A DNA stretch of 44,549 bases from a bacterium (GTDB lineage Bacteria > Oederibacteriota > CAKKQC01). Position 1 is the stretch's first letter. The number at the start of each line of letters is the position of its first letter. Shown in pieces: positions 2,418 through 36,785 of this stretch. The notes under the pieces are model-generated. The model searched no databases. It was given only the letters and a program-made list of their open reading frames with translations, and was not told where the DNA came from. Made by a program: the position numbers and the translations under genes. The stretch spans positions 1 through 44,549 of the forward strand of contig CAKKQC010000079.1 in the NCBI GenBank assembly GCA_919901855.1, read 5' to 3'.

Positions 2418-2953
2418 TGAGAACCGTGCTCGAGTCCCTCCCCGGCGGGTCGTGGACCGTCCGCCGCTACGACGACGCGGGAGGACTGGTGGAGGAGGTG
2501 TCGCGGGCCATCCCCGTCTCCGAACTTTGCCGGAGGCTCGGGAAGTCGAGGCGCCAGGTCTACCGGTACCTGACGCAGGGGTGGTTGCAGTCCTCCGGCA
2601 AGTACCTGGGGGAATGGCTGGTGAGGGAGCAGGGCATCGAGTGGCTGGCCCGTGGCGCACGGGTCAGGTTCCGGCCGATCCCGAGGTCCGCTCAGACCCT
2701 GTTCCCCGAGTACCGGCTTGCGCGCCTTCACCCCTTCCACGACGGGTCGCTGATCATCCCGCGGATCATGGAGCAGGGGGGGCGCGAGGAGCTGATGTGG
2801 ATGATGCGGCAGTACGATTCGCGCGCGCTCAGACGCTGGCTGGCGGCGGAGGGCTGGAAGCTGACTCCGCGCGCCGCAAGGTTCTGGTCATGGTGGTTTC
2901 GGGTGCCGCCCCCTCCGCCGCGGCGCCTGCCGGCCGCCGGGGGGAAGGCATGA
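2417..2953 (+). CDS. HTH protein with DUF6922-like C-terminus, putative antitoxin
   Basis: 178 residues. A helix-turn-helix segment (VSELCRRLGKSRRQVYRYL, about 33-51) suggests DNA binding. The second half (LFPEYRLARLHPFHDGSLII, then EELMWMMRQYD and LTPRAARFWSWWF) follows the pattern I know from DUF6922 proteins, which are often found beside AbiEii nucleotidyltransferases. The stop overlaps the next start by four bases (ATGA, 2950-2953), so the two are translationally coupled. A palindrome over its own promoter is a likely binding site. This is not the canonical AbiEi antitoxin; the antitoxin role is inferred from position and partner. The tail is rich in proline. Confidence 0.6.
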   Translation: MRTVLESLPGGSWTVRRYDDAGGLVEEVSRAIPVSELCRRLGKSRRQVYRYLTQGWLQSSGKYLGEWLVREQGIEWLARGARVRFRPIPRSAQTLFPEYRLARLHPFHDGSLIIPRIMEQGGREELMWMMRQYDSRALRRWLAAEGWKLTPRAARFWSWWFRVPPPPPRRLPAAGGKA

Positions 2954-3739: not shown

Positions 3740-3768
3740 TTGACCCCGCCCTGCCCTGCGCGCATAAT
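3740..3768 (+). promoter_or_regulatory. Promoter of the DUF11 surface-protein operon
   Basis: TTGACC at 3740-3745 and CATAAT at 3763-3768 are separated by exactly 17 bp, a strong match to a housekeeping sigma-70 promoter. The ATG at 3775 lies where transcription should start and no ribosome binding site precedes it, so the message is probably leaderless. Confidence 0.7.
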
Positions 3769-3774
3769 CTGTGA

Positions 3775-6700
3775 ATGGCAGTGACTGACGGCAAGGGGTC
3801 CCAACCGGCTCATTCCGCCCGATCATCGGCAAGCGGTCTTGTGACGGTGGCGGCCTTGATCTTGAGCATGACGCGGGGGATCGCTGCCGCCGGTTGCATC
3901 GAGGACATGTACGCAACATCCGTTTCCCCCTTCAAGGATTTCGTTTCCGTGTTTCCGAATTGGTACCACGCACCCGTAGCGTCCTTCCAGATCATGGACT
4001 GCGGGGAGGTTTCGTGCCCTGGGGCGAATCCCATCGTCGGCGTCACGATCGTGAACTACGGCACGGCTTCCGGCGGGGCCACGGGAGATATCACGGGCGT
4101 TTCCTTCAGGATTACGTGCAACACGAGCGACTCAGGCGACCGGCCCATGACATTCGCCGGCGTCTGGACGATCGGGACCGGAACCTATCCGGCTTGGACC
4201 TGGTCGGGATCCTACACCTGGGCGGTGGACTCGTGCGATGCCAAGTCCGGATGTTCCTGCGCCCCGAACTTCTACGTCTATGCCGACATCCACTCATGCG
4301 CGACGGACGGCGCGACCATCGCACTGGGGCCGTCGTACAACGATATCCAGATGATTGGCGGCATCACCGACACGTGGGCCTGCTCGGCGCCTTGGGCCAT
4401 CCTGCCTTCCCCGGACAAGACGATCAACGCGGCGGTGGTCCGGGCTTCTTCGGATACCGCGGCGCCGGGCGACACGGTCACCTACACCATCTTCTACGGA
4501 CGCCGGGGCAGCAGCGCGATCAACCCGATCACGATCGTGGAGACGTTACCCACGTACACACATTATGTAGCGGGAAGCGGGATCCCTGTTCCGGATGTGG
4601 GGTGGGATCCCAACACCGGTCCTCCCGCCGCGCTGAAGTGGACCGTGCCGGGGCCCTTCTCTCCGGGGGGGGGCGCGACCGGACAGATCACGTTCCAGGC
4701 GACTGTGGATTGGGGTAACGGCGAGTCCTTCGAGCCGGGATCGGGTGATGTGGCCGCCCCCGAGGGCATACGGCTCGACAGCCGTGCGCAAGTCTCGTGG
4801 ACCGGTGCGTCGTGCTCCGGCGCCGTGAGCAACCAGGCGCAGGCCACGGTCAGGCGGTTCCTCATGTGGATGGTCGGAGACAACGACGTCCTGTTCTCGC
4901 CCTCGTACGGCCAACAGGCCGACGAGATGATCTACACGATCTTTCTCAAGAATGTCTCGTCGACCAAGACGTGGTGGGACGTCCGGATCTGGGACACGGT
5001 ACCGTTCAGCCTGGATGCTTGGTGCCCGGGATGCGGGCTCGAGGACCCGTGTCAGGGGTGGACGATGACGCCGTCCGGTTGCGCCGCGGCAACGCCCGGA
5101 AAGAACGTCGTGGCCGGGAACACGATACTGACGTGGAAACTCGACATGCCGCCGCAGTTCACGATGACGGTGCGTTGGAAGGCGAAAGTTAAGTCCATTG
5201 CCGTGGCCGGATCCACCGCGATCAACTCCGTGTCCGTCCTGGAGATGGGCCGAACCGGGATCGTCGCCGGTACGGGCCGGTCGACGATCCCGTCCAGGTT
5301 TGCCCACCTCTCCTCCATCATTCTGCCCACGAGCTACGTCAGCTATATGGCATTTGGCGGATCGAATTGGATTCAGCCGGATCTGAACGGCGTCGGCGAC
5401 GCCCTTGTGATGTTCCCGCTGAACAAGAAGACCCAGTTCGAGCTTCGAGCCATTTCTTATGAGGGAGCCGGATGGGCCACCAGCGGGGGCACCAGCGACT
5501 CCATCGGATGCCTGATCGGCGACTGCCTCGGGGGTTTCCCGGGCAGCGCCGGCCCCTGTCCGTCCATAGCCATCGGGACGGGAGCCGGCAGTCTCGCAGG
5601 ATGCAAGGCCGAGAGGATCCCGGCCCGGTACGAGCGCCCGACCATGACCGCCGTCCCATACCAGAATGTATACAAGGTCACTTCGAACTCGCCGATCAAC
5701 TGGCAATCGCAGCCGGGGTTCGGCGTCCAGTGCGGGGACTTCACGATGTACGCGCCCTCGACTACTCTGACATATGTCGGCCTCATGCATTACTATTGGA
5801 AGAACTCATACCACGCATCGTTTCTGAATTCGGGTACAGGGATGTTCTTCATGAGTACAGGCAAGGACGCCTATGGGACTTTCGACTCGACCATGCCGAC
5901 CACGGTGCATGTCTTCCGTTTCAACTACACGACACTGGCCTGGGACTACCAGAAGAGCTACGAGCTTGCGGGGGAGAGCGCTGCGTGCGACTCACACACC
6001 CTCCTCGGTGAGGAGGGTCCCTACCGCAGTATTTCGTCGCAAACCCAGCTCATCGTGTGGCAGGGCTATCAGGCGCTGAGCACTCTGGGATGCGGGTGTC
6101 CCTGCTACGACAACAGCGGGCCCATGCCGACGCGCGAGACCGGCAATGCGGTTTCCCAGGTCGGATCCGGAACCTTCTACGGAGTGATGCAGGGCTATGG
6201 GAATGAGACCAAGGTCTCGCTGGGCAATGTCGGAACGGCTGACGCCTCGTACAGGGTCTCCCTCTACGTGCCCGACGACCAGTCGGGACCGGCTGAGGTC
6301 CCACTGTATATGCGCGGAAGGTCCGGGAGCTGGCAGGTGCAGGGCGTGGCGACGGTGCCGCAGGGACTCATGGCCGCGCTTAACCCGCAGATCTACGGTG
6401 TGGACGGCAGCCTGTTCAATGCGCCCAGCACGGCTGCGTTCAAGGTGGAGCTTCTCGGAGGGGGGCCGATCCAGGTAATCCATGGCGCGCGCGTCTTTAC
6501 GGGATGGGGCGGCGGAGCGGTGCTCAATGCCTCTGACGGTCAGCAGACCGGGAGTGATTTCTGGTTGCACACGACCTACACCGACGGCACCTCCGGCGCA
6601 TCACCCGAGACCTACGCGGTGGACGTATTCTGCCCCGCCAAGGGAACGGCGATCCGGTGCGTGGACGACGTCGGCCTGTCCACCACGTATACGACCACGG

Positions 6701-7554
6701 GACCGGATCAGTGCATTTCTTTCATTGGATTTGCCAATCCCGTCCGCAAGAGGAACGTCCGGGTAACGAGGGTCGGAGGCTCGGGAAACGTGATTGCCCA
6801 ATACATGAATGCGGGGCCTGACAAGGGGTTCACGGCGCCGTTCCTTCCGGTCGGGACCTACTATTCCTTCGTTACTCCGCCGGTGGTCTACGTGGGCCAG
6901 AGTTTCTGGATCACGGTCGTGATCATGGATCAATCCGGATCGACCAAGACTGACTACTGCGGAACGACGAGCTTCACGTCCACCGATCCGTCGGCCAAGA
7001 TCGAGGGCTCGGCCATGGAGAGCTTCAACTTCACGTGGTCCAGCGTCAGTGCCTGCAATGCGGCGCCGAACGAGAACGGCGTCAAGCTGTTCCTGAATCT
7101 GACGTTGACCAGGCTTGGGATGCAATCCATCGTCGCGAACGACTTGTTGGATGGGTCGATCACCGGGCTGGGTGTCGTCAGCGTGGTCGGGGTGAACGTG
7201 CAGTACGAAGGCTCCCCGCGGCTCACGATCGCCGCCAGTTCGGACACCGTGCAGTTCAAGGTTTGCTGGAGCAACTACTCTGCGGCGAGCGCCTTCACGT
7301 TCGTGATGACGGATGCTGTTCCGGTTGGCATGACGTTCGTCCCCGAGGCGGGGTCCTCGGCCCTGATGTGTGGAGGGAATTGGGGTGGGGCGGGAGCGGT
7401 GGCCTATTCGACCCTGGCGTCTGCGACCATGCCGCTCGCGGCGTCGTTCAGTACGGGGAACCCCGTGGCGGGGACGCGGTGGCTGAGGTGGACGGCGCCG
7501 GTCGTGGGAGTGCGGACGACCGGCTGTGCGTGTTTCCGCGTTACGGTGAACTAG
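3775..7554 (+). CDS. Large secreted Cys-rich protein with DUF11-like domains, first gene of surface operon
   Basis: 1259 residues. A Sec signal peptide covers about 1-38 (hydrophobic VTVAALILSM, likely cut near GIAAA). Residues about 215-360 and 360-510 look like DUF11-type beta-sandwich domains (PGDTVTYTIFYG and ADEMIYTIFLKNVS, each followed by DTVP/ETLP-type strands). About 520-1130 is a long Gly/Ser/Cys-rich beta region I cannot assign. The last 120 residues (from 1139) are another DUF11-like domain, VCWSNYSAASAFTFVMTDAVP to RWLRWTAPVVG, matching the single-domain paralogs encoded next. Many cysteines suggest disulfides outside the cytoplasm. The ATG at 3775 is preferred because it coincides with the predicted transcription start; GTG at 3781 is an alternative. 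Confidence 0.7.
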   Translation: MAVTDGKGSQPAHSARSSASGLVTVAALILSMTRGIAAAGCIEDMYATSVSPFKDFVSVFPNWYHAPVASFQIMDCGEVSCPGANPIVGVTIVNYGTASGGATGDITGVSFRITCNTSDSGDRPMTFAGVWTIGTGTYPAWTWSGSYTWAVDSCDAKSGCSCAPNFYVYADIHSCATDGATIALGPSYNDIQMIGGITDTWACSAPWAILPSPDKTINAAVVRASSDTAAPGDTVTYTIFYGRRGSSAINPITIVETLPTYTHYVAGSGIPVPDVGWDPNTGPPAALKWTVPGPFSPGGGATGQITFQATVDWGNGESFEPGSGDVAAPEGIRLDSRAQVSWTGASCSGAVSNQAQATVRRFLMWMVGDNDVLFSPSYGQQADEMIYTIFLKNVSSTKTWWDVRIWDTVPFSLDAWCPGCGLEDPCQGWTMTPSGCAAATPGKNVVAGNTILTWKLDMPPQFTMTVRWKAKVKSIAVAGSTAINSVSVLEMGRTGIVAGTGRSTIPSRFAHLSSIILPTSYVSYMAFGGSNWIQPDLNGVGDALVMFPLNKKTQFELRAISYEGAGWATSGGTSDSIGCLIGDCLGGFPGSAGPCPSIAIGTGAGSLAGCKAERIPARYERPTMTAVPYQNVYKVTSNSPINWQSQPGFGVQCGDFTMYAPSTTLTYVGLMHYYWKNSYHASFLNSGTGMFFMSTGKDAYGTFDSTMPTTVHVFRFNYTTLAWDYQKSYELAGESAACDSHTLLGEEGPYRSISSQTQLIVWQGYQALSTLGCGCPCYDNSGPMPTRETGNAVSQVGSGTFYGVMQGYGNETKVSLGNVGTADASYRVSLYVPDDQSGPAEVPLYMRGRSGSWQVQGVATVPQGLMAALNPQIYGVDGSLFNAPSTAAFKVELLGGGPIQVIHGARVFTGWGGGAVLNASDGQQTGSDFWLHTTYTDGTSGASPETYAVDVFCPAKGTAIRCVDDVGLSTTYTTTGPDQCISFIGFANPVRKRNVRVTRVGGSGNVIAQYMNAGPDKGFTAPFLPVGTYYSFVTPPVVYVGQSFWITVVIMDQSGSTKTDYCGTTSFTSTDPSAKIEGSAMESFNFTWSSVSACNAAPNENGVKLFLNLTLTRLGMQSIVANDLLDGSITGLGVVSVVGVNVQYEGSPRLTIAASSDTVQFKVCWSNYSAASAFTFVMTDAVPVGMTFVPEAGSSALMCGGNWGGAGAVAYSTLASATMPLAASFSTGNPVAGTRWLRWTAPVVGVRTTGCACFRVTVN

Positions 7555-7582
7555 TTTGGTTGCCAGGGGGAGGTGGATGGGA

Positions 7583-8107
7583 ATGGCTTGTAGGGCGGTG
7601 GTGATTGCGGCCTTGGCGTTCGTGTTCGGGGCCGGAAGGGCCGGGGCGTTTCTGGAAACGGGTACGCTGTTGACCAATGCTGCGTCCGCGACCTATTCGG
7701 GCGGTGGTCAGGGAGCCAGCGTCAGTTTCTCGGCCACGATGAAGGTCCTGCTGGCCAATCCGTCGTTGTTTCTCTGGAAGGCCACGACGCCGACGATCGT
7801 GACATCGGTGGGCGGGTACGTGACGAACACCATATCGTTCTCGAACGGGGGGGCCAACACCGCGTTTATCGTTACGATCAACGACAAGCTTCCGAACGGG
7901 GCGGGTTGCTGGTTCATGCAACAGGTGGACGCGTGGTCGGGATCGGGAGTCCCCGCGGCGTCGTGGTCGGGGAACAACACGTCGTGGGCGGCCGGGGCGC
8001 CCCCGGTGGGCCAGACGTCCGCGACATCGATATTCCTGAGGTGGATCGTGCCAAGCCTCGGCGTCGGCGTGAGCGGGGTGATCACGTTCGTGGTGTCGTT
8101 CGGATGA
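7583..8107 (+). CDS. Small secreted DUF11-like protein, array member 1
   Basis: 174 residues. This is the only array member with its own ribosome binding site (GGGGGAGG at 7566-7573); the ATG at 7583 is 9 bases from it, and the in-frame ATG at 7577 is a close alternative. The signal peptide ends near GAGRAGA. The mature protein begins FLETGTLLTNAASATY, the N-terminal block shared by the array, followed by the domain core KATTPTIVTSVGG, TNTISFSNGG and the DKLP turn, and a closing RWIVPSLGVG strand. It carries one mature cysteine. The 28-base gap to the preceding gene suggests the same transcript. Confidence 0.7.
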   Translation: MACRAVVIAALAFVFGAGRAGAFLETGTLLTNAASATYSGGGQGASVSFSATMKVLLANPSLFLWKATTPTIVTSVGGYVTNTISFSNGGANTAFIVTINDKLPNGAGCWFMQQVDAWSGSGVPAASWSGNNTSWAAGAPPVGQTSATSIFLRWIVPSLGVGVSGVITFVVSFG

Positions 8108-8697
8108 GGATGCGGTGGCTGGCAGTCGTGCCGGTCGCGATCCTGGCGGCCCCAGCGCCGTTGGCGGCTTCAGTGACCTCGGGGATGCTCCTGACGAACT
8201 TCGTCTCCGCGACTTTCTCGCTTCCGGGCGGATCGGGCGTAAGCTCTTCGGGTCCCGGCGTGTCCATGATCAACATCCCGAACAGCGCATCCACCTGGGT
8301 GTTGGTAACCGACTCGCCCCAGCTCTGCATGAAGGGCTGGAAGGTCGCCCTCGGCGATCCCAACGGGACACGGCTTTCTGACCCGCCGAGCGTGTACCCG
8401 GGGGACCTCCTCTGTTTCGAGATCGGGTTCTCGAACTGCGGCGGGCTCACGATGTGGTCGGTGACCTTGAACGACGCGCTTCCGGCGAACGTCGTGAAGG
8501 CGCCCGCCATGCCGGGCAACGTCTGGGTTCAGGGGGGGTACTCGAGCATTTCCGTCTCTTGGGCGACCAGCCTCGGCGGACCCTGGTACTCCTCCTCCGA
8601 TGCGGGGCAGGCCGCTCCGATGCATATCCGATGGATCCTGGGCAAAGTGGGTATGAACCAGACCGGGTATGTCCGGTATTGCGTAACGGTTCTGTGA
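8104..8697 (+). CDS. Small secreted DUF11-like protein, array member 2
   Basis: 197 residues, starting at the ATG that overlaps the previous stop (ATGA, 8104-8107). The signal peptide (MRMRWLAVVPVAILAAPAP) ends at LAA. The shared N-terminal block reads SGMLLTNFVSATFS. It is the most divergent member: the usual K-T-x-T-P-T run is replaced by a longer KGWKVALGDPNG stretch, but PGDLLCFEIGFSN, LNDALPANV, RWILGKVG and the terminal VTVL strand remain. Four mature cysteines. Function unknown. Confidence 0.65.
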   Translation: MRMRWLAVVPVAILAAPAPLAASVTSGMLLTNFVSATFSLPGGSGVSSSGPGVSMINIPNSASTWVLVTDSPQLCMKGWKVALGDPNGTRLSDPPSVYPGDLLCFEIGFSNCGGLTMWSVTLNDALPANVVKAPAMPGNVWVQGGYSSISVSWATSLGGPWYSSSDAGQAAPMHIRWILGKVGMNQTGYVRYCVTVL

Positions 8698-9290
8698 AGA
8701 TCGCGGCGGGTGCACGAAAGAAGAAGTATTTCCGGCGCGTGGTGGGTCTTCTTGCGCGCGCCATGGTGTGCATCGCCGCTGCTGGCTTGCCGGCGAGAGG
8801 GCAAGCTGCCACGGCATGCGGCACGATGATCACCAATATCGCCTCCATGACGATGTCATCCGGGTTTCCCAGTTACGTCGCTTACACGATCACCTACTCG
8901 ATGTCGATCCAGGTCCGGGTCCTCTGTCCGCCCGTCGTCCGGGGCCTCAAGACCGTCTGGCCGGCGACCGGCGGGGCGGGAGAGACACTGACGTACTCGA
9001 TCTGCGTCGTCAACGAGCGGACGGAGTCGATCTGGGATATCACGGTAACCGACGCGTTGCCGGGGAACATGACGTTTGCGGCGATGAGTCCCGCGAACTA
9101 CGACATGACAAACGGGGGGCCGTTCGTGCTGGGGGCGGTGGTGGAGTCGAACGCGTCGGCCACGGCGGGACCGTGGAACGCCGGGGGCCCGACGGTGGGG
9201 CAGGCGCCGGCGTATTACCTGCGGTGGGTGATTCCGGGCGTGGGACCGGCGAAAAGTGCGTGCGTGACGTTCAGTGCGAGGATCCTGTGA
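8694..9290 (+). CDS. Small secreted DUF11-like protein, array member 3
   Basis: 198 residues from the GTG at 8694, which overlaps the previous stop (GTGA). The signal peptide has an unusually long basic n-region (ARKKKYFRR) before VVGLLARAMVCIAAAG and is probably cut after GQA. The mature protein starts ATACGTMITNIASMTMS, then KTVWPATGGAGETLTYSICV, VTDALPGNMTF, GQAPAYYLRWVIPGVGP and a final strand ARIL. Four cysteines in the mature chain. An in-frame ATG within the signal (AMVCIAAAG) would give a shorter leader but would lose the overlap. Confidence 0.65.
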   Translation: MKIAAGARKKKYFRRVVGLLARAMVCIAAAGLPARGQAATACGTMITNIASMTMSSGFPSYVAYTITYSMSIQVRVLCPPVVRGLKTVWPATGGAGETLTYSICVVNERTESIWDITVTDALPGNMTFAAMSPANYDMTNGGPFVLGAVVESNASATAGPWNAGGPTVGQAPAYYLRWVIPGVGPAKSACVTFSARIL

Positions 9291-9823
9291 AGGTCGCGCG
9301 GCTCCTCCGGCTGTGGGTGGCGGCAGCTGCCGTGGCGTGGGCCGCGCAAAGCCGGGCCGCCACGGCCGACGGCACCCTCATAACGAACCTCGCCTCTTTC
9401 ACCTACCGGCTCAACTCGGGGATGATGGTGACCCTGAGTTACGGTGCGACCGCAACCGTGATGGTGGCCAGGCCTGCGGTGCTTCTGCAGCGTGTCCTCA
9501 CGCCGACGATCCAGAGCGCGGGAGGGACGCTCACGTTTCGGATCACGATGTCCAACGCCTCGTCCTATGCGTCGGCGTTTGCGGTGACGGCGACGGAGAC
9601 CATGCCGGGAAACGTCAAGTTTGCGGGAGGCGCGGAGACCTATGCCCTCGATCCGCCGGGGGGGACGATCACTCCGGCATGGTCGACGAACGCCGGCGCC
9701 AACTGGACGAGCGGGAGCTATCCGGCAACCGGGCAGGCCGGGCCGCTCCAACTGCGCTGGTCGGCCGACATACTGGGCCCCAAAGCTACGGGTGTGATGA
9801 CTTACACGGTGTCGATCCTATGA
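9287..9823 (+). CDS. Small secreted DUF11-like protein, array member 4 (cysteine-free)
   Basis: 178 residues from the GTG at 9287 (GTGA overlap). Signal peptide to about AAQSRA; mature start ATADGTLITNLASFTY, the clearest version of the shared block and nearly identical to the opening of the 1804-residue protein downstream. Core: VLTPTIQSAGGTLTFRITMS, TETMPGNVKF, GQAGPLQLRWSADILGP. No cysteine at all, unlike its neighbours, so disulfides cannot be essential to the fold. Confidence 0.7.
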   Translation: MKVARLLRLWVAAAAVAWAAQSRAATADGTLITNLASFTYRLNSGMMVTLSYGATATVMVARPAVLLQRVLTPTIQSAGGTLTFRITMSNASSYASAFAVTATETMPGNVKFAGGAETYALDPPGGTITPAWSTNAGANWTSGSYPATGQAGPLQLRWSADILGPKATGVMTYTVSIL

Positions 9824-10407
9824 CCTATCGCGGGGGTCGTCTGGGGCGCGTCCGGCGAACGCTGGGGGCCGTCGCGATTGCGGCGATCCTGGCGGGCGGG
9901 ACGGGGAGCGCGGTGGCGGCCACGGCCGAGGGGACGTTGATCACGGGTGTGCTGTGCATGACCTACGGCTCCGTCAACCCGGGCGTCCAATACTCGGCAA
10001 GTTACTGCGTGACGGGGGTGGCGCTAGTGGCGAACCCCCAGATCCTGGCCACGAAGATCGCGACGCCGTCCATCGAGAGCAGCGGGGCGACCCTGACCTA
10101 CTGCATCTGGGTGTCGAACGTGTCGGCCTTCACGTCGGCGTTCAACGTGCACGTGATCGACATCATCCCGGGGTCATCGGGGGTGATGGCGTACGTGCAG
10201 GGGCAGGAGAACTGGATAACCGCTACTCCTGGGGCGACTGTCACGTTCGGGTATGGATCGCAGCCACCGTGGAATGCGTTCAGGACGCTGTACTGGGGCT
10301 CGGAGTGTCCGGCGGGGCAGACGGGGCCGTACGGAATCCGGTGGGTGGTGAGCCTGATCGGGCCGGGGAAGAGCGCGTTGCTGTGCTGGAAGGCGTCGAT
10401 CCTGTGA
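9820..10407 (+). CDS. Small secreted DUF11-like protein, array member 5
   Basis: 195 residues from the ATG at 9820 (ATGA overlap). Signal peptide with basic GRLGRVRR start and cut near SAVA. The shared block reads ATAEGTLITGVLCMTYGS, with Gly in place of the usual Asn after ILT/IT. Core: KIATPSIESSGATLTYCIWVS, HVIDIIPGSSG, a longer loop, then GQTGPYGIRWVVSLIGPG and ASIL. Five mature cysteines, an odd number, so one could be free or pair between subunits. Confidence 0.7.
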   Translation: MTYRGGRLGRVRRTLGAVAIAAILAGGTGSAVAATAEGTLITGVLCMTYGSVNPGVQYSASYCVTGVALVANPQILATKIATPSIESSGATLTYCIWVSNVSAFTSAFNVHVIDIIPGSSGVMAYVQGQENWITATPGATVTFGYGSQPPWNAFRTLYWGSECPAGQTGPYGIRWVVSLIGPGKSALLCWKASIL

Positions 10408-10949
10408 GGAAACCCGCCATCCTCGCGCTCGCCGTAGTGATGCTGCTCGGGATGCCCCGGCAGGTCCGGGGGATGACCTCGGATGGGGCCATGATCACGA
10501 ACTACGCTTCCGTGACCGGGTACTGGGGCCTGGCGGGACCGGCCTACACGTCTCGTTTCACGATGAGCTTCAACGTTACCGCCGGCGCGATCGTCTCCAA
10601 CCCGGTCATCCTGGCCCAGAAGACGGTCACGCCGACGATCATGAACGCCGGCGGGACGCTTACCTTCTCGGTCTGCGTCGTCAACCTCTCGCTCCAGTGC
10701 TCGTCGTGGAACGTCGTGGTCCAGGAGAAGCTCGCGGACAGCGTCGCCTACGTGAATCTCAGCATGACGAGTTGGGTGCCGGCGGGGTCGTCGTGGAACC
10801 TGTCGGATTCGGGGAACGGGACGACGTGGGCGGCGGAGCCCGCGGAGCCGCCGGCAGGGCAGACGTCGCCGTTCTTCATGCGCTGGGCGCTGGACAAGCT
10901 GGGACCCGGCACGAGCGCATCCGTCACGTTCAGGGCGGTGGTGCAATGA
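10404..10949 (+). CDS. Small secreted DUF11-like protein, array member 6
   Basis: 181 residues from the GTG at 10404 (GTGA overlap). Signal peptide RKPAILALAVVMLLGMP, cut near QVRG. Shared block: MTSDGAMITNYASVTGYW. Core: KTVTPTIMNAGGTLTFSVCV, VQEKLADSVAY in place of the usual TDxLP turn, a NGTTWAAEP loop, GQTSPFFMRWALDKLGPG and a final RAVVQ strand. Two cysteines. Confidence 0.7.
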   Translation: MRKPAILALAVVMLLGMPRQVRGMTSDGAMITNYASVTGYWGLAGPAYTSRFTMSFNVTAGAIVSNPVILAQKTVTPTIMNAGGTLTFSVCVVNLSLQCSSWNVVVQEKLADSVAYVNLSMTSWVPAGSSWNLSDSGNGTTWAAEPAEPPAGQTSPFFMRWALDKLGPGTSASVTFRAVVQ

Positions 10950-11473
10950 GGGGGAGGCGGCTGGCCGGGGTGGCTGGATTGCTCATCCTGCTCGCGGGGG
11001 TGGGACCGGCTAACGCCATGACGTCCGACGGAACGATGATCACGAGCGTGGCCTGCATTACGCATTCGTCTCCGTCGGGGTATGGCTTCACCGTGAGCTT
11101 CTGCGTCACGGCGAGGGTCTTCATCAGCAACCCGTGCCTCACCGGCCAGAAGACCGCGAATCCGTCCGCGATGGAATCGGGTGGCGTGATGACCTACACG
11201 ATCTGGGTCGTGAACTGCTCGTGCACGGGCTCGGCGTTCAACATCAACGTGACCGACCGCCTGCCGGACAACGTGGTGATGGGATTCAACATGGCCGGGT
11301 GGAACGGCGGGTCCGGCGGAGCCTGGTTCGTGTCGAGCGGATCCAACAACACGACGTGGGCGGTGAACGCTCCGCTGTCAGGTCAGGCGCCGCCGTACTT
11401 CCTCCGGTACGTCCTCGACCAGCTCGGGCCATGCCGCAGCGCGTATTCGGCGTTCACAGTGACGCTGCAATGA
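10946..11473 (+). CDS. Small secreted DUF11-like protein, array member 7 (six cysteines)
   Basis: 175 residues from the ATG at 10946 (ATGA overlap). Signal peptide cut near ANA; shared block MTSDGTMITSVACITHS. It is closely similar to member 8 across the whole mature chain: VNCSCTGSAFNINVTDRLPD, WNGGSGGAW, SGSNNTTWAVN, YFLRYVLDQLGPCRSA. Six cysteines at positions shared with member 8. The pair looks like the newest duplication in the array. Confidence 0.7.
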   Translation: MRGRRLAGVAGLLILLAGVGPANAMTSDGTMITSVACITHSSPSGYGFTVSFCVTARVFISNPCLTGQKTANPSAMESGGVMTYTIWVVNCSCTGSAFNINVTDRLPDNVVMGFNMAGWNGGSGGAWFVSSGSNNTTWAVNAPLSGQAPPYFLRYVLDQLGPCRSAYSAFTVTLQ

Positions 11474-12006
11474 GCACCATGCGCAGACTCGCAGCTTGGG
11501 TGGTCGTGGCGGCCTGGCTCGCGAGCCGGGCGGGGCCGGCGAGCGCCATGGTCGCGGACGGGACGATGATCACGAACGTCGCCTGTATCACGTACATGTC
11601 GTCAATCGGGATGGGCTTCTCCGTGAGCTTCTGCATGACGTCCACGGCCCTGATCCTTCCTCCCCCCTGCATTACGGCCCAGAAGATCGTGACGCCGTCG
11701 CTTCAGGCTTCGGGCGGGTTGATGACGTTTCGGATCTGGGTCATCAACTGCTCCTGTTTCAGCTCGGCGTTCAACATCACCATGACGGACCGCCTGCCGG
11801 ACAACGTGACGATGGGCACGAACCAGGCCCCGTGGAACGGCGGGTCGGGCGGGAGCTGGTACGCGGCGAGCGGATCGAACAACACGACGTGGGCGGTCAA
11901 CCCGCCGCTGGTGGGGCAGGGGGTTCCGTACTACCTCCGGTATGTCCTGGACCAGCTTGGGCCGTGCCGAAGCGCGTTCGCTTCATTCACGGTGTCGGTG
12001 CTGTGA
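11470..12006 (+). CDS. Small secreted DUF11-like protein, array member 8 (six cysteines)
   Basis: 178 residues from the ATG at 11470 (ATGA overlap); a second in-frame ATG follows three codons later. Signal peptide cut near ASA; shared block MVADGTMITNVACITYM. Core: KIVTPSLQASGGLMTFRIWV, INCSCFSSAFNITMTDRLPD, WNGGSGGSWYAASGSNNTTW, YYLRYVLDQLGPCRSAF, VSVL. Sister copy of member 7. Confidence 0.7.
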   Translation: MSTMRRLAAWVVVAAWLASRAGPASAMVADGTMITNVACITYMSSIGMGFSVSFCMTSTALILPPPCITAQKIVTPSLQASGGLMTFRIWVINCSCFSSAFNITMTDRLPDNVTMGTNQAPWNGGSGGSWYAASGSNNTTWAVNPPLVGQGVPYYLRYVLDQLGPCRSAFASFTVSVL

Positions 12007-12545
12007 GCACGATCCGGCAACTCGCGGGCCGAGCATTCACGTCGATGCTGGTCGCCGGGCTGGCCGGCTGGGCCGGGCCTGCCCCCGCGATGACCGCCGA
12101 CGGGGCTGTCATCACGAACACGGCCTGCATTACGTTTTCATCCGCATCCGGCCGGGGATGGTCCGTGTCGTTCTGCGTCACGGCGCGGCCGATGGTCGCG
12201 AATCCGTGCGCGCTGGTGCAGAAGACCGTGAGCCCCACGTCCCAGACGGCCGGGGGCACGATGACCTATACGATCTGGGTCGTCAACTGCGCGTCCGTGG
12301 CGTCGGCGTTCAACCTCGTTGCCGTGGACCCATTGCCGTCGAACGTGGCGTATGACGCGTTTCTCGGGAGCTGGCCGGGGGTGTCGGCGGGGACCTGGGC
12401 GCGGTACCGGGGGGCGGACGGGGCAAGCTGGCAGGCAGCAGATCCCGTTGCGGGCCAGGCGTCGCCCTACTACCTCCGGTTCGTGCTGGACATGCTCGGA
12501 CCGAACCGGAGTGCGATGCAGGTCTACTCGGTAACGGTCCTGTGA
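12003..12545 (+). CDS. Small secreted DUF11-like protein, array member 9
   Basis: 180 residues from the GTG at 12003 (GTGA overlap). Signal peptide cut near APA; shared block MTADGAVITNTACITFS. Core: KTVSPTSQTAGGTMTYTIWV, VNCASVASAFNLVAVDPLPS, WARYRGADGASW, YYLRFVLDMLGPNRSAM, SVTVL. Four cysteines; it lacks the NCSC and GPC cysteines of members 7 and 8. Its stop overlaps the start of the giant protein. Confidence 0.7.
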   Translation: MSTIRQLAGRAFTSMLVAGLAGWAGPAPAMTADGAVITNTACITFSSASGRGWSVSFCVTARPMVANPCALVQKTVSPTSQTAGGTMTYTIWVVNCASVASAFNLVAVDPLPSNVAYDAFLGSWPGVSAGTWARYRGADGASWQAADPVAGQASPYYLRFVLDMLGPNRSAMQVYSVTVL

Positions 12546-15500
12546 GGAGCGGGTTGCGGGTCCGGAGGGTCCTGTCGGCCTGCGGGGTCGTGGCGGGCAT
12601 CCTGGTCGCGGCACCGCTGCCGGCGCGGGCGGCGACGGCGGACGGGTCGATCATCACCAACCTCGTGTCGATCGCGTGGACCACGGTCTGGGGCGTGACG
12701 GCCACCGGGGCGCAGTTCACGCAGACCAGCGCGACGGCCTACGCGACCGTGATCTCAACCGCGTTCGGGGTGACCCAGGACTGGTGGAACGTGACCGCGG
12801 GCGCCAAGGCGAATCCGGTGCCGGGCGACGTGATCCAGTTCACGGTGACGATCACGAATTCGGGCGCGACGCCCCTGACGACGATCCACGTGACCGACAC
12901 GCTGGCGGCCGGGCTCACGTACCAGGCGGGGAGCCTGAACGTGGAGCCGGCCGCGGGATGGACGACGAACGCGGCGGGGGCGATCCTGCGGGCGGACCAG
13001 AGCGGGTCCACGATCGCGCCGGGTGGGACGGCCCTGATCGTCTTCAGTGCGACCGTCGACCCGGTCTGCACGACGGTCACCATCGGGAACACGGCCTATT
13101 TCGACGGCGCGGGGAGTCTCTTGGGCGCGTCGCCCGTGTTCGTCGTGGCGGGGCCGGTGACGGACCTCTCCGTGACGCACCAGGTCACCGACGGAGGCTC
13201 GGTGGGGTCGGTCGTGACGTACCAGATCACGGTCGCGAACACGGGGGAGACGACCGTGACGGACCTGACGGTGACGGACACGGTCGCCGCCCTGGTGACC
13301 GGGGCGGCAGCGGGAACGCCCGCGGGCTGGGCGGCTCCGGTGGTGACGAGCGTGGCGTCGGGTACCCGGTTCGTATGGACCGGGACGGGGCTGACGCTGT
13401 GGCCCGGGACGAGCACGACGTTCACGATCGCGGGGGCCTACGGGCTGGTCTGTGTCCCCACCCAGCTCTCGAACACGGTCGTCGTGACGGGCGGGAACTC
13501 GTGCGCGCGGGCTGCCCCCCATTCGGCGGTGGCGGCCGGGTCCGTGATCGCGCCCTACGTCACGGCTGTGGCCCTCCGCCAGGACGTGGTCCAGGCGCCG
13601 GTCAATTCCGCCGACCCGGTGAAGTACCGGCTGGTGGTTTCGAACACGGGGACGGCGACGATCACGAGCCTGACGGTGGCGGATACCGTCGCGCCCCAGG
13701 TGGTCGGAGTGACGACCGAGCAGACCGCCCCGTTCGGGGCTCCCGGAGTGACGCAGGGGCCCTCGGGGACGATCTACGTCTGGAGCGCGTCGGCGGCGGC
13801 CCTGCTGGTGCCAGGCGCGACCTTCACGTTCACGATCACGGGGGCGGCCGGATCCGTGTGCGTCCAGACGGCGGTGTCGAACACGGGGTACGTCGCCGGT
13901 GTGGGTACCTGCGCGGGGGCGTCGGCGCTCTCCGCACCGGCCGCGGGGTTCGTGATCACGGCTCCGACCATGGACTTCACGGTGACGAGCCAGTTGACCG
14001 GCGGCGGCACCGTGGGTGCGGCCATGAGCTACGGCATTATCGTGGCCAACACGGGCACGGCGACAATCACGAACCTGACGGTCGTGGACACGGTACCGGC
14101 CGTGATCGCGAACCAGGCGGCGGGGACGCCGGCCGGTTGGGCGGCGCCGGTGGTGACGAGCGTGGCGTCGGGGACACGGTATGTGTGGAGCGGGGCGGGG
14201 CTGAGCCTGTCGCCGGGCGCGACGACGACGTTCGCGATCTCGGGGAACTACGGCGTCGTGTGCGTTCCCACCCCGGTTTCTGACACGCCCTACGCGACGG
14301 GCGGGATCTCGTGCGCGCAGGTTAACCACCTCGGCAATGCGGCGGGGATGCTCCTGCCGCCGGTGACGACGGGGCTGGCGGTGTCCATGCTCCAGACGCC
14401 GGCATCGCCCGCGATCGGATCTCTGGTCACGTACCGCGTGGTGGTGACCAACACGGGGACGGCGACGATCACGAACCTCGTGGTCGTGGACTCGATTCCG
14501 GGGCTGGTGATGAGCGCGACGGCGAGCGAGCCGAGCGGGTTCCCGACGCCCACGGTGGCTAGCGGGTCGGTGTTCACCTGGGGCAGCAGCGCGGCGAACC
14601 TGGGGCTCGGTCAGAGCTTCACGTTCACGGTCACGGGGACGGTGGGGGCGGTCTGCGCGAACACGGCGGCGTCCGCCTCGGCGTTCGTGACGGGCACGGC
14701 AGTCTGCTCGACCACGGTGCTGACCACGAACCCGGTCGGGTTCGTGGTCCCTGCGCCGGTGACGGGGCTCACGATAGTGAAGACCCAGACGCCGGCGTCG
14801 CCGGGAACGGGGTCGCCGGTTACGTACCGGATCGTGGTGGCGAACTCGGGGGACGCGACGATCACGAGCCTGACCGTGACGGACACGATCTCGCCGGTGG
14901 TGACGGCGGCGGCGGGGGACCAGCCGGCCGGATTCGGGGCGGCGTCGGTCACGAACAGCTCGTCCGGCACGCTGTTCGGCTGGAACAGCGCCGCTGCGAA
15001 CCTGGGCCCGGGCAAGTCGTTCACGTTCACGATCACGGGCGTGGTGGGGCCGATCTGCGTGCAGACGGCGGTCTCGAACACGGCGTACGCGACCGGGACG
15101 AGCGCGTGCTCGGCGACGGTTGTCAGCACGAGCCCGTCTCCCGGCTTCGTCCTGTCGGCGCCGGTCATGGACTTCACGGTGACCAAGCAGGTGACGGGTA
15201 CTGCCGCGGTGGGGTTGCCGGTCACGTACACGATCACGGTCGCCAATACCGGTGAGGTCACGATCCAGAACCTGACGGTGGTCGACACGGTTTCCGCCGT
15301 GGTGGCGGGACCGGCGGCGGGGACGCCGCCAGGTTGGGCGGCGCCGGTGGTGACGAGCGTGGTATCGGGGACCCGGTTCGTCTGGACCGGTGCCGGGCTC
15401 GTCCTCGGACCGGGGACGAGCACGACGTTCACGATCGCGGGGACCTACGGTGTCGTTGGCAACCCCACGCAGGTGTCGAACACGGCGTACGCCACGGGTG

Positions 15501-17956
15501 GCATCTCGTGCGCCCAGGTGATGCATTACAGCAATACAGTCGGCGCCCTGATCCTGCCTCCGGCCGCGCTGGCGGGGTCGATGAGCGTACTCCCGAATCC
15601 GCAGAGCGTGGGGCACATCTTCCTCCTGACGCTGACCGTGACCGACACGGGCGCGGCCGGGGCCAACGGGGTGAGTCCCGCGGCGCCGCTGGTCACGGGC
15701 TCGGGAGCCGCGGTTCTCGTCAGCGGGCCGATACCGTCGCCGCCCGTCGCGCTCGCCGGAGGGGGGGCCGTCACGTTCACGTGGACGTACACGGCGACCG
15801 TGGCGGGGAACCTGCTCTTCACGGTCACGGTGACGGGCACGGACGCGGTCTCGGCGGGCGCGCTCTCGATCGTCCGGTCGGCCGCGATGGTCGTGCAGTC
15901 GGCGGCGTCGCTGGCCGGGACGCTCGCGTGCTCGCCCAACCCCGCGGCCGCGGGGGCCACGGTTCAGGCGGTGCTGACCGTGACGAACTCCGGGGCCGCG
16001 GCCGTCCAGGGCGCGACGCCCGCGATCCAGGTGAACGCGGGGTCCGGCCTGCTCACGCTCCTCAGCGGGCCGTCTCCGGCCGGGCCCCTCACGATTCCCG
16101 GCGGGGCTGCCCAATCGTTCACGTGGACGTACTCGATGACCGGGGCGGGCGTGGTATCCCTCACGGCGACGGTTGCCGGGCTCGACGTCAACGCGGGCAC
16201 GCCCGTGGTCGTGGCCGGGTCATCGGTCGTGACGGTGGCCGTGCCCGCGAGCCTGGTGTCGGTGATGGCGGTGAGCCCGTCCCCCGGGTATGTCGGGTAC
16301 TGGCTTACGGTCGACCTCACGGTGACCAACACGGGCGGGGCGTCGGCCGGAGGGATCACGCCGTCGCTGACGGTGGCGACAGGCGCATCGCTCGTCGCGG
16401 CGGTGAATGGGCCGGTGCCGGCGGGCCCGGTCACGCTGCCGGGCGGGTCGAGCGTCACGTTCCGGTGGACCTACTCCGTATCGGGGGCGGGCGCGGTCTC
16501 GTTCTCGGCGTCCGCGACCGGCACCGACGGGACGTTCTTCACGGCGGCGATATCGGGCGCGGCCGGGGGCGTCACGCTTCAGACCGCCGGGACGCTGGCG
16601 GCGGGGCTCGCCGTCACCCCGCCCGTGGCGTCGTTGTGGCAGCAACTCGTCACGGTGGAGCTCACGGTCACGAACACGGGCGGCGCGACGGTGAACACGG
16701 TGGCGCCCGCCCTCCAGGTCAACCGGGGGGCCGGCGTGCTCACGCTCCTGAGCGGTCCGGTCCCGGCCGGGCCGGTCTCGATCGCGTCGGGGCTGTCGCA
16801 GACCTTCGTGTGGACTTACACGGCTTCCGGCGCGGGATGGCTGTCCTTCACGGGAACGGGAACGGGGGTGGATACGGCCGGGGGCGGCACGGTCGGGGCC
16901 GCAGCGTCGGCGTCGGCCACGATGCAGACCGGGGCGAACCTCGTGTGTGCGCTCGCGGCGACGGTCCCGTCGCCGCTGGGGGCGCGCCAGCCGATCACGC
17001 TCGTGCTCACGGTCACCAATACGGGAGATGCGGCCGCGATCGGCGCGTTGCCGTCGGCCGACGTGGGGCCCGCGCCGGAGACCGCGGGCGAGAAGGTCGG
17101 TGGTCCGGTTCCGGCCGGCCCGGTCGCGATCCCGGGCCATGGGACCGTGGCGTTCACGTGGATCGTGCAGGCGATCCAGGCGCCGCCGACGCTGACGTTC
17201 ACGGTGACGGTCGAGGCGCAGGATGCCAACTCGGGAGCCCCGCTGGCCGCCGCCCGGACCACGGCGGCGCTGGTCGTGTCGGCCGACGGCCGGCTGGTCG
17301 CCTCGGCGGAGACGTCGCCCGTCGAGGTCAGGGAGGGCGAGACCGCCGAGATCCGGCTGACGGTCGAGAACACGGGCATCAGCGACGTGCTGAACGTGCA
17401 GCCGTCCCTGACGCTGGCCGACCCGAGGCTCGCCAAGGTCGTCTCCGGCCCCGTGCCCACCGGGGGTCTGACGCTCACGGCGACCGGGAGCGTCGTCTTC
17501 GTGTGGAGGGTGACGGCCCAGCGCGAGGGACACCTCGTCTACACGGCGGCGGTTACCGGCGTGGATTCCAACTCCGGTGCGCCGTTGAGCGCGGGGGTGG
17601 ACGCCGTGGAGACCTTCGTCGAGATCCGGCCGGCGCGGTTCTTCAAGGTGAAGAAGGGCTCGGCGCTGGTCGCCCCGAACGTGCTCGATCTGTCGGATCC
17701 GTCGAGCAACCTGCACTTCGTGTTCAAAGGGAAGGCGGGCGGGCACGTGGCCCTGACCATCTACGACGAGGCGCACCGGTATGTGGGGGCGGAAGACGTG
17801 GTGCTGGACTGGTCGGGCATGGGCGAGATCTCGACGAGGAACGGACGGCTCGGCATCCTCCAGCTCGGGCAGGGCGTGCACTGGGCGGTGGCGAAGGGCG
17901 GCGGCGTGGATGACATCCTGCCGTTCGTCGTCGTCGTGAAACGGAAGCTCCAGTGA
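12542..17956 (+). CDS. Giant secreted repeat protein: seven DUF11-like and six CARDB-like domains plus FlgD/T9SS-like C-terminus
   Basis: 1804 residues from the GTG at 12542 (GTGA overlap). Signal peptide to about residue 30 (PLPARA), then the array's opening block ATADGSIITNLVSIAW. Seven DUF11-type domains of about 133 residues follow (about 78-1008), each with TYxIxVxNTG, DTV and TFTITG strands. Six Gly/Ala-rich domains of about 115 residues (about 1009-1696) carry LTVTNTGGA and SGPVPAGPV motifs and resemble CARDB or similar Ig-like repeats. The last 105 residues (SNLHFVFKGKAGG, VALTIYDEAHRYV, GVHWAVAKGGG, VVVVKRK) resemble the FlgD-like or T9SS-type C-terminal beta domains that mark surface export in some phyla. 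Adhesin or surface-fibre backbone is a reasonable guess. No catalytic motif seen. Confidence 0.8.
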   Translation: MRSGLRVRRVLSACGVVAGILVAAPLPARAATADGSIITNLVSIAWTTVWGVTATGAQFTQTSATAYATVISTAFGVTQDWWNVTAGAKANPVPGDVIQFTVTITNSGATPLTTIHVTDTLAAGLTYQAGSLNVEPAAGWTTNAAGAILRADQSGSTIAPGGTALIVFSATVDPVCTTVTIGNTAYFDGAGSLLGASPVFVVAGPVTDLSVTHQVTDGGSVGSVVTYQITVANTGETTVTDLTVTDTVAALVTGAAAGTPAGWAAPVVTSVASGTRFVWTGTGLTLWPGTSTTFTIAGAYGLVCVPTQLSNTVVVTGGNSCARAAPHSAVAAGSVIAPYVTAVALRQDVVQAPVNSADPVKYRLVVSNTGTATITSLTVADTVAPQVVGVTTEQTAPFGAPGVTQGPSGTIYVWSASAAALLVPGATFTFTITGAAGSVCVQTAVSNTGYVAGVGTCAGASALSAPAAGFVITAPTMDFTVTSQLTGGGTVGAAMSYGIIVANTGTATITNLTVVDTVPAVIANQAAGTPAGWAAPVVTSVASGTRYVWSGAGLSLSPGATTTFAISGNYGVVCVPTPVSDTPYATGGISCAQVNHLGNAAGMLLPPVTTGLAVSMLQTPASPAIGSLVTYRVVVTNTGTATITNLVVVDSIPGLVMSATASEPSGFPTPTVASGSVFTWGSSAANLGLGQSFTFTVTGTVGAVCANTAASASAFVTGTAVCSTTVLTTNPVGFVVPAPVTGLTIVKTQTPASPGTGSPVTYRIVVANSGDATITSLTVTDTISPVVTAAAGDQPAGFGAASVTNSSSGTLFGWNSAAANLGPGKSFTFTITGVVGPICVQTAVSNTAYATGTSACSATVVSTSPSPGFVLSAPVMDFTVTKQVTGTAAVGLPVTYTITVANTGEVTIQNLTVVDTVSAVVAGPAAGTPPGWAAPVVTSVVSGTRFVWTGAGLVLGPGTSTTFTIAGTYGVVGNPTQVSNTAYATGGISCAQVMHYSNTVGALILPPAALAGSMSVLPNPQSVGHIFLLTLTVTDTGAAGANGVSPAAPLVTGSGAAVLVSGPIPSPPVALAGGGAVTFTWTYTATVAGNLLFTVTVTGTDAVSAGALSIVRSAAMVVQSAASLAGTLACSPNPAAAGATVQAVLTVTNSGAAAVQGATPAIQVNAGSGLLTLLSGPSPAGPLTIPGGAAQSFTWTYSMTGAGVVSLTATVAGLDVNAGTPVVVAGSSVVTVAVPASLVSVMAVSPSPGYVGYWLTVDLTVTNTGGASAGGITPSLTVATGASLVAAVNGPVPAGPVTLPGGSSVTFRWTYSVSGAGAVSFSASATGTDGTFFTAAISGAAGGVTLQTAGTLAAGLAVTPPVASLWQQLVTVELTVTNTGGATVNTVAPALQVNRGAGVLTLLSGPVPAGPVSIASGLSQTFVWTYTASGAGWLSFTGTGTGVDTAGGGTVGAAASASATMQTGANLVCALAATVPSPLGARQPITLVLTVTNTGDAAAIGALPSADVGPAPETAGEKVGGPVPAGPVAIPGHGTVAFTWIVQAIQAPPTLTFTVTVEAQDANSGAPLAAARTTAALVVSADGRLVASAETSPVEVREGETAEIRLTVENTGISDVLNVQPSLTLADPRLAKVVSGPVPTGGLTLTATGSVVFVWRVTAQREGHLVYTAAVTGVDSNSGAPLSAGVDAVETFVEIRPARFFKVKKGSALVAPNVLDLSDPSSNLHFVFKGKAGGHVALTIYDEAHRYVGAEDVVLDWSGMGEISTRNGRLGILQLGQGVHWAVAKGGGVDDILPFVVVVKRKLQ
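12775..15567 (+). repeat. Seven tandem DUF11-type coding repeats, two alternating subtypes
   Basis: The repeats start near 12775, 13160, 13562, 13971, 14368, 14762 and 15168. Repeats 2, 4 and 7 share GTPxGWAAPVVTSV, TRFVWTGAGL and TGGISCAQ-like segments. Repeats 3, 5 and 6 share TPASP or its equivalent, TATITSL and AANLGPGKSFTFT-like segments. Near-identical nucleotide stretches within each subtype suggest recent duplication or gene conversion. Confidence 0.7.
15568..17630 (+). repeat. Six tandem CARDB-like coding repeats
   Basis: Units of about 115 codons begin near 15568, 15905, 16250, 16590, 16934 and 17285. Each has a TVTNTG-type strand, a SGPVPAGPV-type segment and an aromatic FxWTY strand; the last two are the most divergent. 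The domain name is a resemblance, not a proven family assignment. Confidence 0.6.
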
Positions 17957-19332
17957 GGCGGGCGACGGGACTCGCGGCGGCCGTCCTCGTGGCGTCCGCG
18001 CTGGGAGGACGCGCGGGGGCGGCCACGACGACCCCGGCCGGGGCCGCGTTCCTCGCCATGCCGCTGAGCGTCCAGCAGATGGGGATGGGGGATGTGACGC
18101 TCGGAGGCCACGACATCATGCGGGCGTGGATGAACCCGGCCATGCTGGCGGAACAGGCCAACGAGGGCGAGGTGGCGATTAACGGCGGACCGCAGTTCCA
18201 GTCCGTGGAGACGACGCTGGGGCTGGGGGTGGGCTGGAAGCGTACTCCGCAGAACATGATCGGGGCGTTCCTGTCCTACTACAGCGCGGCGTTTCCCGAG
18301 GTGTCGCTCCTGGGTGACGAGACCGGGACGAAGGTCGCGGTGAACAACATCGCGGCGGGCGTGGCGGCCGCCTACCGCTGGGAGGTCGTGCGCATCGGCG
18401 TGACGGCCAAGTTCCTCTCCCAGAGCTACCTGGGGGAGAGCTCGGCGGGGGTGGCGGGGGATGCCGGCGCGCTCGTGACGTGGAAGGGGATCACGGGGGG
18501 CGTGTCGGCGCGGAACCTCGGGCCGAATCCGCTGGCGCCGGACGAGATGACGTCGTTCGGCATGGCCCTGCCGTTCGAGATCCGGGGCGGGCTTTCCTAC
18601 TCGTATGTGCCGATGAACCTGAGTGTGGGGGCGGAGTACGTGGCGGCGAAGGAGCGGAATCCGGGTATCGGCGCGGGAGTGGAGTGGTGGCTGGCCAAGT
18701 ACCTGGGGGCCCGCGCCGGGTACATGGGGCTGAACTCGGGGGGATCGCCGGCGCTCACGTTCGGGTTGTCGGCGATGTACGCGGGCATCGGGCTCGACTA
18801 CGCGATGCAGGCCTCGGCGGTGGGATCGGGGCACCACATCAGCCTGTCGTATGCCGTCGGCGCCAAGCGGTCCGATTCCCGCCCCGCGGCCGCGGGGGAG
18901 GCGCTTCCCGAGGCCGCCGAGGACACGGGGACGAAGCTCAACGTCGCGGTCGCGGACCTGAAACCCGAGGGCGTGTCCTCCAGCGATGCGGCGGTCATCT
19001 CCGAGCTCCTCCGCGCCGAGCTGGTCATGGTGGGCACGCTCAACGTGGTGGAGAAGGCGAACATGGACAAGATCCTGGCCGAACACGCGTTTCAGCAGAG
19101 CGGATGCACGGCGCAGGATTGCGCGGTCAAGCTCGGCAAAATCCTGAACGTCCGCCGCATGATCGTCGGCTCATTCGGCAAGTTCATGAACCGCTTCTAC
19201 ATCACGGTCCGGGTCGTGGACGTCACGACCGGAAAGGTGCTCTTCAGCGACACCGAGCGGATGGGGGTGAACGCGGAAGTGCAGGATGCCGTGCATGCCC
19301 TCGCCGGCCGGGTCGCCAAGCGGATGAAATAG
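17953..19332 (+). CDS. PorV/PorQ-like outer-membrane barrel fused to a CsgG/LpoB-like domain
   Basis: 459 residues from the GTG at 17953 (GTGA overlap with the giant gene). Signal peptide to about GGRAGA. Residues about 25-305 resemble PorV/UPF0164 barrels: FLAMPLSVQQMGMGDVTLGG, AWMNPAML near the N-terminus, repeated amphipathic strands and a closing HHISLSYAVG. After an Ala/Glu-rich linker, about 329-459 form a CsgG/LpoB-like domain (LNVAVADLKPEGVSSSDAAV, then LRAELVMVGTLNVVEKANMD, GKILNVRRMIVGSFGK, YITVRVVDVTTGKVLFSD). PorV proteins shuttle surface proteins at the outer membrane in type IX secretion; CsgG domains occur in curli export and in periplasmic regulators. As the last gene of the operon it is the likely export or anchoring partner. 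Confidence 0.75.
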   Translation: MRRATGLAAAVLVASALGGRAGAATTTPAGAAFLAMPLSVQQMGMGDVTLGGHDIMRAWMNPAMLAEQANEGEVAINGGPQFQSVETTLGLGVGWKRTPQNMIGAFLSYYSAAFPEVSLLGDETGTKVAVNNIAAGVAAAYRWEVVRIGVTAKFLSQSYLGESSAGVAGDAGALVTWKGITGGVSARNLGPNPLAPDEMTSFGMALPFEIRGGLSYSYVPMNLSVGAEYVAAKERNPGIGAGVEWWLAKYLGARAGYMGLNSGGSPALTFGLSAMYAGIGLDYAMQASAVGSGHHISLSYAVGAKRSDSRPAAAGEALPEAAEDTGTKLNVAVADLKPEGVSSSDAAVISELLRAELVMVGTLNVVEKANMDKILAEHAFQQSGCTAQDCAVKLGKILNVRRMIVGSFGKFMNRFYITVRVVDVTTGKVLFSDTERMGVNAEVQDAVHALAGRVAKRMK

Positions 19333-19357: not shown

Positions 19358-19363
19358 GTGCGG

Positions 19364-36778: not shown

Positions 36779-36785
36779 GAGTCCC

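Follow-up and report, generated by a model that had tools for sequence, protein, structure and literature searches.

The closest described relatives of the proteins studied here are the CLIPPER (DUF11) domains, whose crystal structure (PDB 9IFR) contains an isopeptide bond between Lys715 and Asn806, with Asp748 as the likely catalyst (PMC12617251). The bonds described in CLIPPER domains are intramolecular. The locus presented below encodes proteins of a similar fold in which Lys, Asp and Asn occupy similar positions, but its small proteins are cut before the last two strands, which are found instead at the front of the chain. A comparable arrangement is known from donor-strand pili and filaments, including chaperone-usher pili, TasA and the archaeal thread Saci_0406, which likewise combine an incomplete Ig-like domain with an N-terminal donor and, as at this locus, have a cap or tip protein that lacks either of these elements (PMC9715654). 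In contrast to these fibers, the locus draws on another fold family, has a two-strand hairpin rather than a single strand as candidate donor, encodes nine different subunits, and places a sorting domain at the presumed base; a profile scan of the operon genes found no usher or PapD-like chaperone among them.

Two further systems are relevant. Type B cargo of the type IX secretion system consists, like the largest protein of this locus, of large adhesin-like proteins with a C-terminal sorting domain and a partner encoded directly downstream, with many such pairs per genome (PMC12618676, PMC9143113). The partner of type B cargo is often a cognate PorP/SprF shuttle encoded adjacent to it, whereas all type A cargo of Bacteroidota shares one PorV, as in Flavobacterium johnsoniae, where a single PorV serves all type A domains (PMC12618676). 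Here, the partner combines a PorV-family part with a CsgG/LpoB-like domain in one chain, and the sorting domain is similar to the type A/FlgD-Ig kind. Finally, engineered split isopeptide domains (tag/catcher pairs and RrgA welding) likewise separate the acceptor from the strand that bears the partner residue (PMC5487036, PMC5333627); those constructs are man-made, whereas the split at this locus would be natural and chained.

Organization of the operon and its neighborhood

The window, that is, the whole stretch of 44,549 nucleotides that was analyzed, is one entire contig of a 4.68 Mb draft genome in 91 contigs. The open reading frames of a twelve-gene operon are present where the initial annotation had placed them (Table 1), comprising genes for proteins of 1259, 1804 and 459 residues and nine small paralogs of 174–198 residues, designated s1 to s9 in gene order. 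The 4-base ATGA or GTGA overlaps are likewise present at 10 of 10 junctions from s1 through the PorV-CsgG gene; at the first junction, a gap of 22–28 nt separates the gene for the 1259-residue protein from s1. Third-position GC is high (0.81–0.93) across all twelve genes, which supports the coding status of each. The promoter that had been proposed proved less secure: a TTGACC-17-CATAAT element is indeed present, but as a consensus match that is not above chance, since three matches of this type were observed against 1.4 expected from shuffled sequence. It would put the start of transcription at about the ATG and yield an almost leaderless transcript.

The nine small proteins form a single alignable family (28–35% identity to s1), in agreement with their annotation as paralogs. 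DUF11 is matched above the Pfam cut-off by the 1259- and 1804-residue proteins and by some of the small proteins, the others scoring below it. Signal-peptide-like N-termini are found on each small protein and on the 1804-residue protein. On visual inspection, the mature small proteins start with Met, Ala, Phe or Ser; the lipobox Cys that marks the lipoprotein pilin precursors of type V (FimA-type) pili is absent, and a relationship to these pili was rejected. F-ENA fibers were set aside as DUF11 relatives because F-ENA corresponds to DUF4183.

Table 1. Coordinates of the operon features in the window; the terms donor and acceptor denote proposed roles
Feature	Position	Strand	Remarks
Sigma-70-like promoter consensus (TTGACC-17-CATAAT)	3740..3768	+	Consensus match only
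1259-aa secreted protein	3775..7554	+	Candidate tip/adhesin; two internal DUF11 stretches
Truncated DUF11 core, C-terminal, of 1259-aa protein	7186..7551	+	Acceptor without last two strands; Gly at Lys site
s1	7583..8107	+	Start 7577 or 7583; donor hairpin 7652-7762, truncated DUF11 core after hairpin
s2	8104..8697	+	Donor hairpin 8173-8316
s3	8694..9290	+	Donor hairpin 8808-8930
s4	9287..9823	+	Donor hairpin 9359-9475; acceptor triad altered (Lys to Arg, Asp to Glu)
s5	9820..10407	+	Donor hairpin 9919-10038; Gly replaces Asn
s6	10404..10949	+	Donor hairpin 10473-10604; acceptor Asp to Glu
s7	10946..11473	+	Donor hairpin 11018-11134; Ser replaces Asn
s8	11470..12006	+	Donor hairpin 11548-11664; mature form modeled with AlphaFold2
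s9	12003..12545	+	Donor hairpin 12090-12206
1804-aa protein	12542..17956	+	Candidate base/stalk: signal peptide, donor hairpin, tandem DUF11/DUF7507 repeats, CARDB repeats, sorting domain
Donor hairpin, N-terminal, of 1804-aa protein	12632..12763	+	
Type IX/FlgD-Ig-like sorting domain, C-terminal, of 1804-aa protein	17648..17947	+	Basic tail
459-aa PorV-CsgG protein	17953..19332	+	PorV-family barrel (~residues 30-300) and CsgG/LpoB-like domain (~327-459); candidate cargo shuttle/anchor

Other genes of the window were also inspected. Just upstream of the operon (2417–3612), a helix-turn-helix/DUF6922 protein precedes a nucleotidyltransferase of the AbiEii type (Pfam AbiEii, 42 bits), and this pair is likely type IV toxin-antitoxin-like. 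A 791-residue open reading frame at 7–2382 carries a MinD/ParA-type ATPase domain (CbiA) and a type II/IV secretion ATPase (T2SSE) in a single chain. A right-handed beta-helix protein with no obvious signal peptide is encoded at 19358–20722, 26 nt past the PorV-CsgG gene, and the product of a 792-residue open reading frame at 35009–37387 ends in a complete methionine sulfoxide reductase B domain (SelR).

Truncated cores, N-terminal hairpins and the isopeptide triad

The small proteins are all DUF11 (CLIPPER) domains whose register is shifted, with the last two strands moved to the front. In tandem DUF11 domains, strands A–E are followed by the F–G hairpin, whose first strand bears an NtA motif. 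The small proteins start with an F–G-like hairpin (GTxITNxAsxT...) and stop directly after strand E. Against a profile of 44 tandem DUF11 repeats, all taken from giant proteins and none from the small ones, 15 of 20 small proteins align from inside the F–G segment of the preceding domain, such that the Asn of their ITN falls on the Asn of SNTA; no match from the 20 reaches the end of the second F–G segment. A MAFFT alignment gives the same shifted register.

The two large DUF11 proteins of the operon contain the same elements. The 1259-residue protein ends in the truncated core of the small proteins, and the 1804-residue protein starts with the hairpin, placed ahead of an already complete domain. 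A hairpin profile yielded 14 strong matches in the genome, corresponding to 12 small proteins and 2 candidate base proteins, all within two operons (see below); the next-best match had an E value of 0.003. No other alignable block is as well conserved between the two base proteins as the hairpin (53% identity, against 23–45% elsewhere). Thirteen stand-alone paralogs of the 1259-residue protein were examined, and all 13 have the truncated core at their C-terminus, where it ranks with their most conserved regions; none has an adjoining donor gene. The anatomy of tip, subunits and base is that of donor-strand polymerization, and we infer that the proteins polymerize.

The register was also examined in AlphaFold2 models, which were run as monomers for about 20 sequences. 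In the model of mature s8, the core has a pLDDT of ∼90 and the hairpin one of 55–70, a low confidence that on its own proves nothing. Superposition of this model on 9IFR covers chain residues 18–109 and stops at the last residue of s8 (Z 8.4, 91 residues). Because the match ends at 109 of 18–140, s8 lacks ∼31 residues of the domain, and the hairpin ahead of its core has a similar length. For the 1804-residue protein, the N-terminal model covers the whole domain, 18–140 (Z 14.8, 2.0 Å, 119 residues), with its first 39 residues, the extra hairpin, left unplaced. A complete nine-strand domain that includes the Asn-bearing strand is thus present in the first repeat of the 1804-residue protein and not in s8. 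The sequence of 9IFR gave no direct match to a core-plus-hairpin profile. Virtual joins of a core to the next hairpin raised the Pfam DUF11 score slightly in some pairs (for example, from 32.8 to 36.1 bits, with reach to profile position 96), and one pair lost score.

By alignment, Lys715 is residue 10 of the 123-residue 9IFR chain, which makes Asn806 residue 101, or 118 in the 18–140 numbering of the entry; as position 118 lies beyond the segment matched by s8, Asn806 belongs to the part that s8 lacks. The triad of the small proteins is divided: the core supplies Lys and Asp, and the hairpin supplies Asn. Of 20 small proteins, 18 have retained Asn in the donor hairpin, as have both base proteins, and 18 have retained Asp in the core. 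The donors without Asn (s5 and s7) and the cores without Asp (s4, which has also lost Lys, and s6) share the same junctions, s4–s5 and s6–s7, and no two losses coincide within a single protein. The chance of such co-loss is 1 in 36 to 1 in 45 (p ∼0.02–0.03), calculated for two events that were spotted after the sequences had been viewed. At the level of sequence, these paired losses favor complementation of each core by the neighboring protein. Two observations fit less well. Gly occupies the Lys site in the 1259-type protein of each operon, while the 13 stand-alone paralogs keep both Lys and Asp; at the tip junction of the present operon, the acceptor thus has Gly at the Lys site, yet the donor s1 retains Asn. 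The Lys of s2 is found only with a shifted alignment. A Lys–Asn bond between subunits may form at the junctions that retain the triad.

Two other readings bear on these observations. A donor-strand fiber could be purely non-covalent, with Lys, Asp and Asn surviving as structural leftovers of CLIPPER domains. Not every DUF11 domain forms an isopeptide bond (PMC12617251), and two junctions, in addition to the tip junction, have no triad; that Asp and Asn have been lost together, junction by junction, nevertheless suggests a function at those that remain, and we consider the non-covalent reading less likely than not. Alternatively, the small proteins could be self-contained monomers, that is, circularly permuted DUF11 domains in which the hairpin fills the core of its own chain, secreted as separate adhesins or coat proteins. 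Hairpin and core do share one chain, and subunits of archaeal threads can self-complement in predictions (PMC9715654). The linker from hairpin to core is, however, only ∼6 residues long in the model of mature s8, as between tandem domains. The termini of Ig-type domains usually lie at opposite poles, which also counts against folding back. Moreover, the triad losses coincide between neighbors and never inside one protein, which disfavors self-completion, and neither the hairpin that precedes a complete domain in the 1804-residue protein nor the core without a hairpin at the end of the 1259-type proteins fits a monomer. We therefore judge self-contained monomers to be rather unlikely and retain complementation between neighboring subunits as the preferred reading.

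Distribution of the small-protein family

Elsewhere in the genome, the small family is found in one place only, a shorter copy of the operon (C1:37857–39513). Its genes encode, in order, a 265-residue protein that corresponds to the C-terminal part of the 1259-residue type with a signal sequence of its own, s1-, s2- and s9-like proteins, a large repeat protein with a sorting domain, and a 391-residue protein of the PorV family (88.3 bits; cut-off 90) that lacks the CsgG part. The junctions of this operon overlap as well. Beyond this genome, strong matches to the small family were confined to the sister genus among 59 genomes, and none was found in plasmids. In the sister genus, represented by the sole other genome of the family, orthologs of s6, s5, s8, s7, s3 and s4 lie in a row on one contig, and s1–s2 are found on another, between a gene whose product ends in a sorting-type domain and a PorV-like gene. 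The search for a conserved gene order that the initial annotation had recommended thus had a divided outcome, in that the shorter operon repeats the layout and parts of it recur in the sister genus, but the small genes retain their order there only in part. With an order of s6-s5-s8-s7-s3-s4 in the sister genus, gene order may differ from the order of assembly. Each of s1 to s6 clusters with its own counterpart from other operons (support 0.93–1.0); because they group with counterparts and not with neighbors, the small subunits are old and not interchangeable.

DUF11 is abundant in the genome, with 147 matches, and the 1259-residue protein has ∼14 relatives (44–54% identity). Open reading frames of up to 10753 residues packed with DUF11 repeats were also noted on contigs C40, C8 and C7 of the same genome. 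The wealth of DUF11 domains and of stand-alone 1259-type proteins with an open core would suit a two-dimensional coat or matrix, in which small proteins bind many 1259-type and repeat proteins; the single hairpin and single open core of each small protein favor a chain instead, making a coat distinctly improbable. Least probable is an expanded array of duplicated adhesin genes with no joint assembly, which the rampant family expansion in the genome would explain, since six positional ortholog groups are kept across genera, the genes are coupled by 4-base overlaps, and two operons follow the same logic.

Export, anchoring and a candidate assembly scheme

The 459-residue protein matches PorV_fam (NF033709; E 9e-17, 61.6 bits against a model cut-off of 90) and a CsgG/LpoB/TolB_N-type domain, consistent with its description as a PorV-like barrel with a CsgG-like domain; an NCBIfam scan of this protein listed PorV/PorQ models and no PorP/SprF model. 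The CsgG part is an alpha-beta domain of ∼140 residues, whose best stretch spans profile positions 40–98 of 210. As the domain looks too short, a full CsgG channel looks unlikely, and identity with the curli channel was rejected, the matches being to CsgG/LpoB/TolB_N-like domains only. Nor is the PorV-CsgG type unique to the operon, as it has 37 matches in the genome. In the genome collection, its relatives are found only on contigs of a Candidatus Coatesbacteria MAG (four) and of Caldiserica (one). The Coatesbacteria proteins are its nearest relatives with a name, so the host is probably related to that group.

With its last 100 residues, the 1804-residue protein falls into a family of basic-tailed C-terminal domains similar to FlgD-Ig and to type IX sorting domains. 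Among its siblings, 11 of 17 match FlgD_ig and 4 of 17 weakly match TIGR04183; the sorting domain of the 1804-residue protein itself has no direct match to TIGR04183, a model with 18 matches in the genome. Of 20 strong copies of the sorting domain, 18 are followed within 90 nt by a PorV-type gene in the same orientation. At least 18 gene pairs of this kind, a large secreted protein with the shared C-terminal sorting-type domain and a PorV-type partner, are scattered through the genome. Cognate pairing of cargo and shuttle is seen here with a PorV-family partner. SprA is present (1951 residues, 263.5 bits; cut-off 200), and six further genomes of the phylum have SprA-like proteins that fall below the cut-off piece by piece. 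For the sortase PorU, the genome has no match above the cut-off, only matches to its sorting-domain parts. The SprA gene, within the region C23:58000–77900, lies directly upstream of a gene for a 709-residue protein with a DUF11-like start and a sorting-type end, beyond which is a weak PorV-like match.

The initial annotation had envisaged a multi-subunit surface fiber with a dedicated outer-membrane partner. The fiber gains support from the split DUF11 register, which supplies a logic for assembly; the PorV-CsgG type, by contrast, is not special to the operon, with at least 18 copies following sorting-domain genes. On balance, we think that the operon probably encodes a hetero-polymeric surface fiber, built by donor-strand complementation of split CLIPPER domains and anchored in a type IX-like manner. 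The small proteins would be exported by their own signal peptides through Sec. The hairpin (strands F–G) of the following subunit would complete the open A–E core of the preceding one, in order, which would place the 1259-residue protein, with an open core only, at the distal end. The nine small proteins would form the shaft, and the 1804-residue protein the base, with its hairpin in front and its repeats as a stalk. SprA would translocate the sorting domain of the 1804-residue protein, the adjacent PorV-CsgG protein would hold it, and through the CsgG/LpoB-like domain the complex may be linked to the periplasm. The small proteins lack a sorting domain, which counts against the scheme; they may cross the outer membrane attached to the base protein. 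Polymerization and its order, formation of the bond, the outer-membrane route of the small proteins, and the roles of tip and base are all proposals drawn from this anatomy.

At most junctions, an acceptor Lys and Asp would meet a donor Asn, and a Lys–Asn isopeptide lock could form without a sortase. We tentatively put forward the full version of such a scheme, although we hold it to be unlikely in its entirety: a self-polymerizing chain in which every subunit combines a catcher (Lys and Asp) with a tag (the Asn hairpin), with covalent Lys–Asn bonds made without a sortase, a fixed order of nine, a catcher-only tip, and a tag-only base for which a PorV-CsgG shuttle of its own provides export and anchoring. 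More speculatively, the stand-alone proteins of the 1259 type, in which Lys and Asp are intact, could be alternative tips.

Every domain of the operon belongs to a known kind; the split CLIPPER domains and the possible natural tag/catcher chain were not part of the initial annotation. If correct, the model would add a surface fiber made of split CLIPPER domains. Engineered tag/catcher chemistry would then have a natural equivalent, with nine different and presumably orthogonal pairs. The model would also describe a type IX-like system outside Bacteroidota with its own PorV-type shuttle for each large cargo, so that the way in which shuttles select their cargo could be tested on the many paralogous pairs that a single genome offers.
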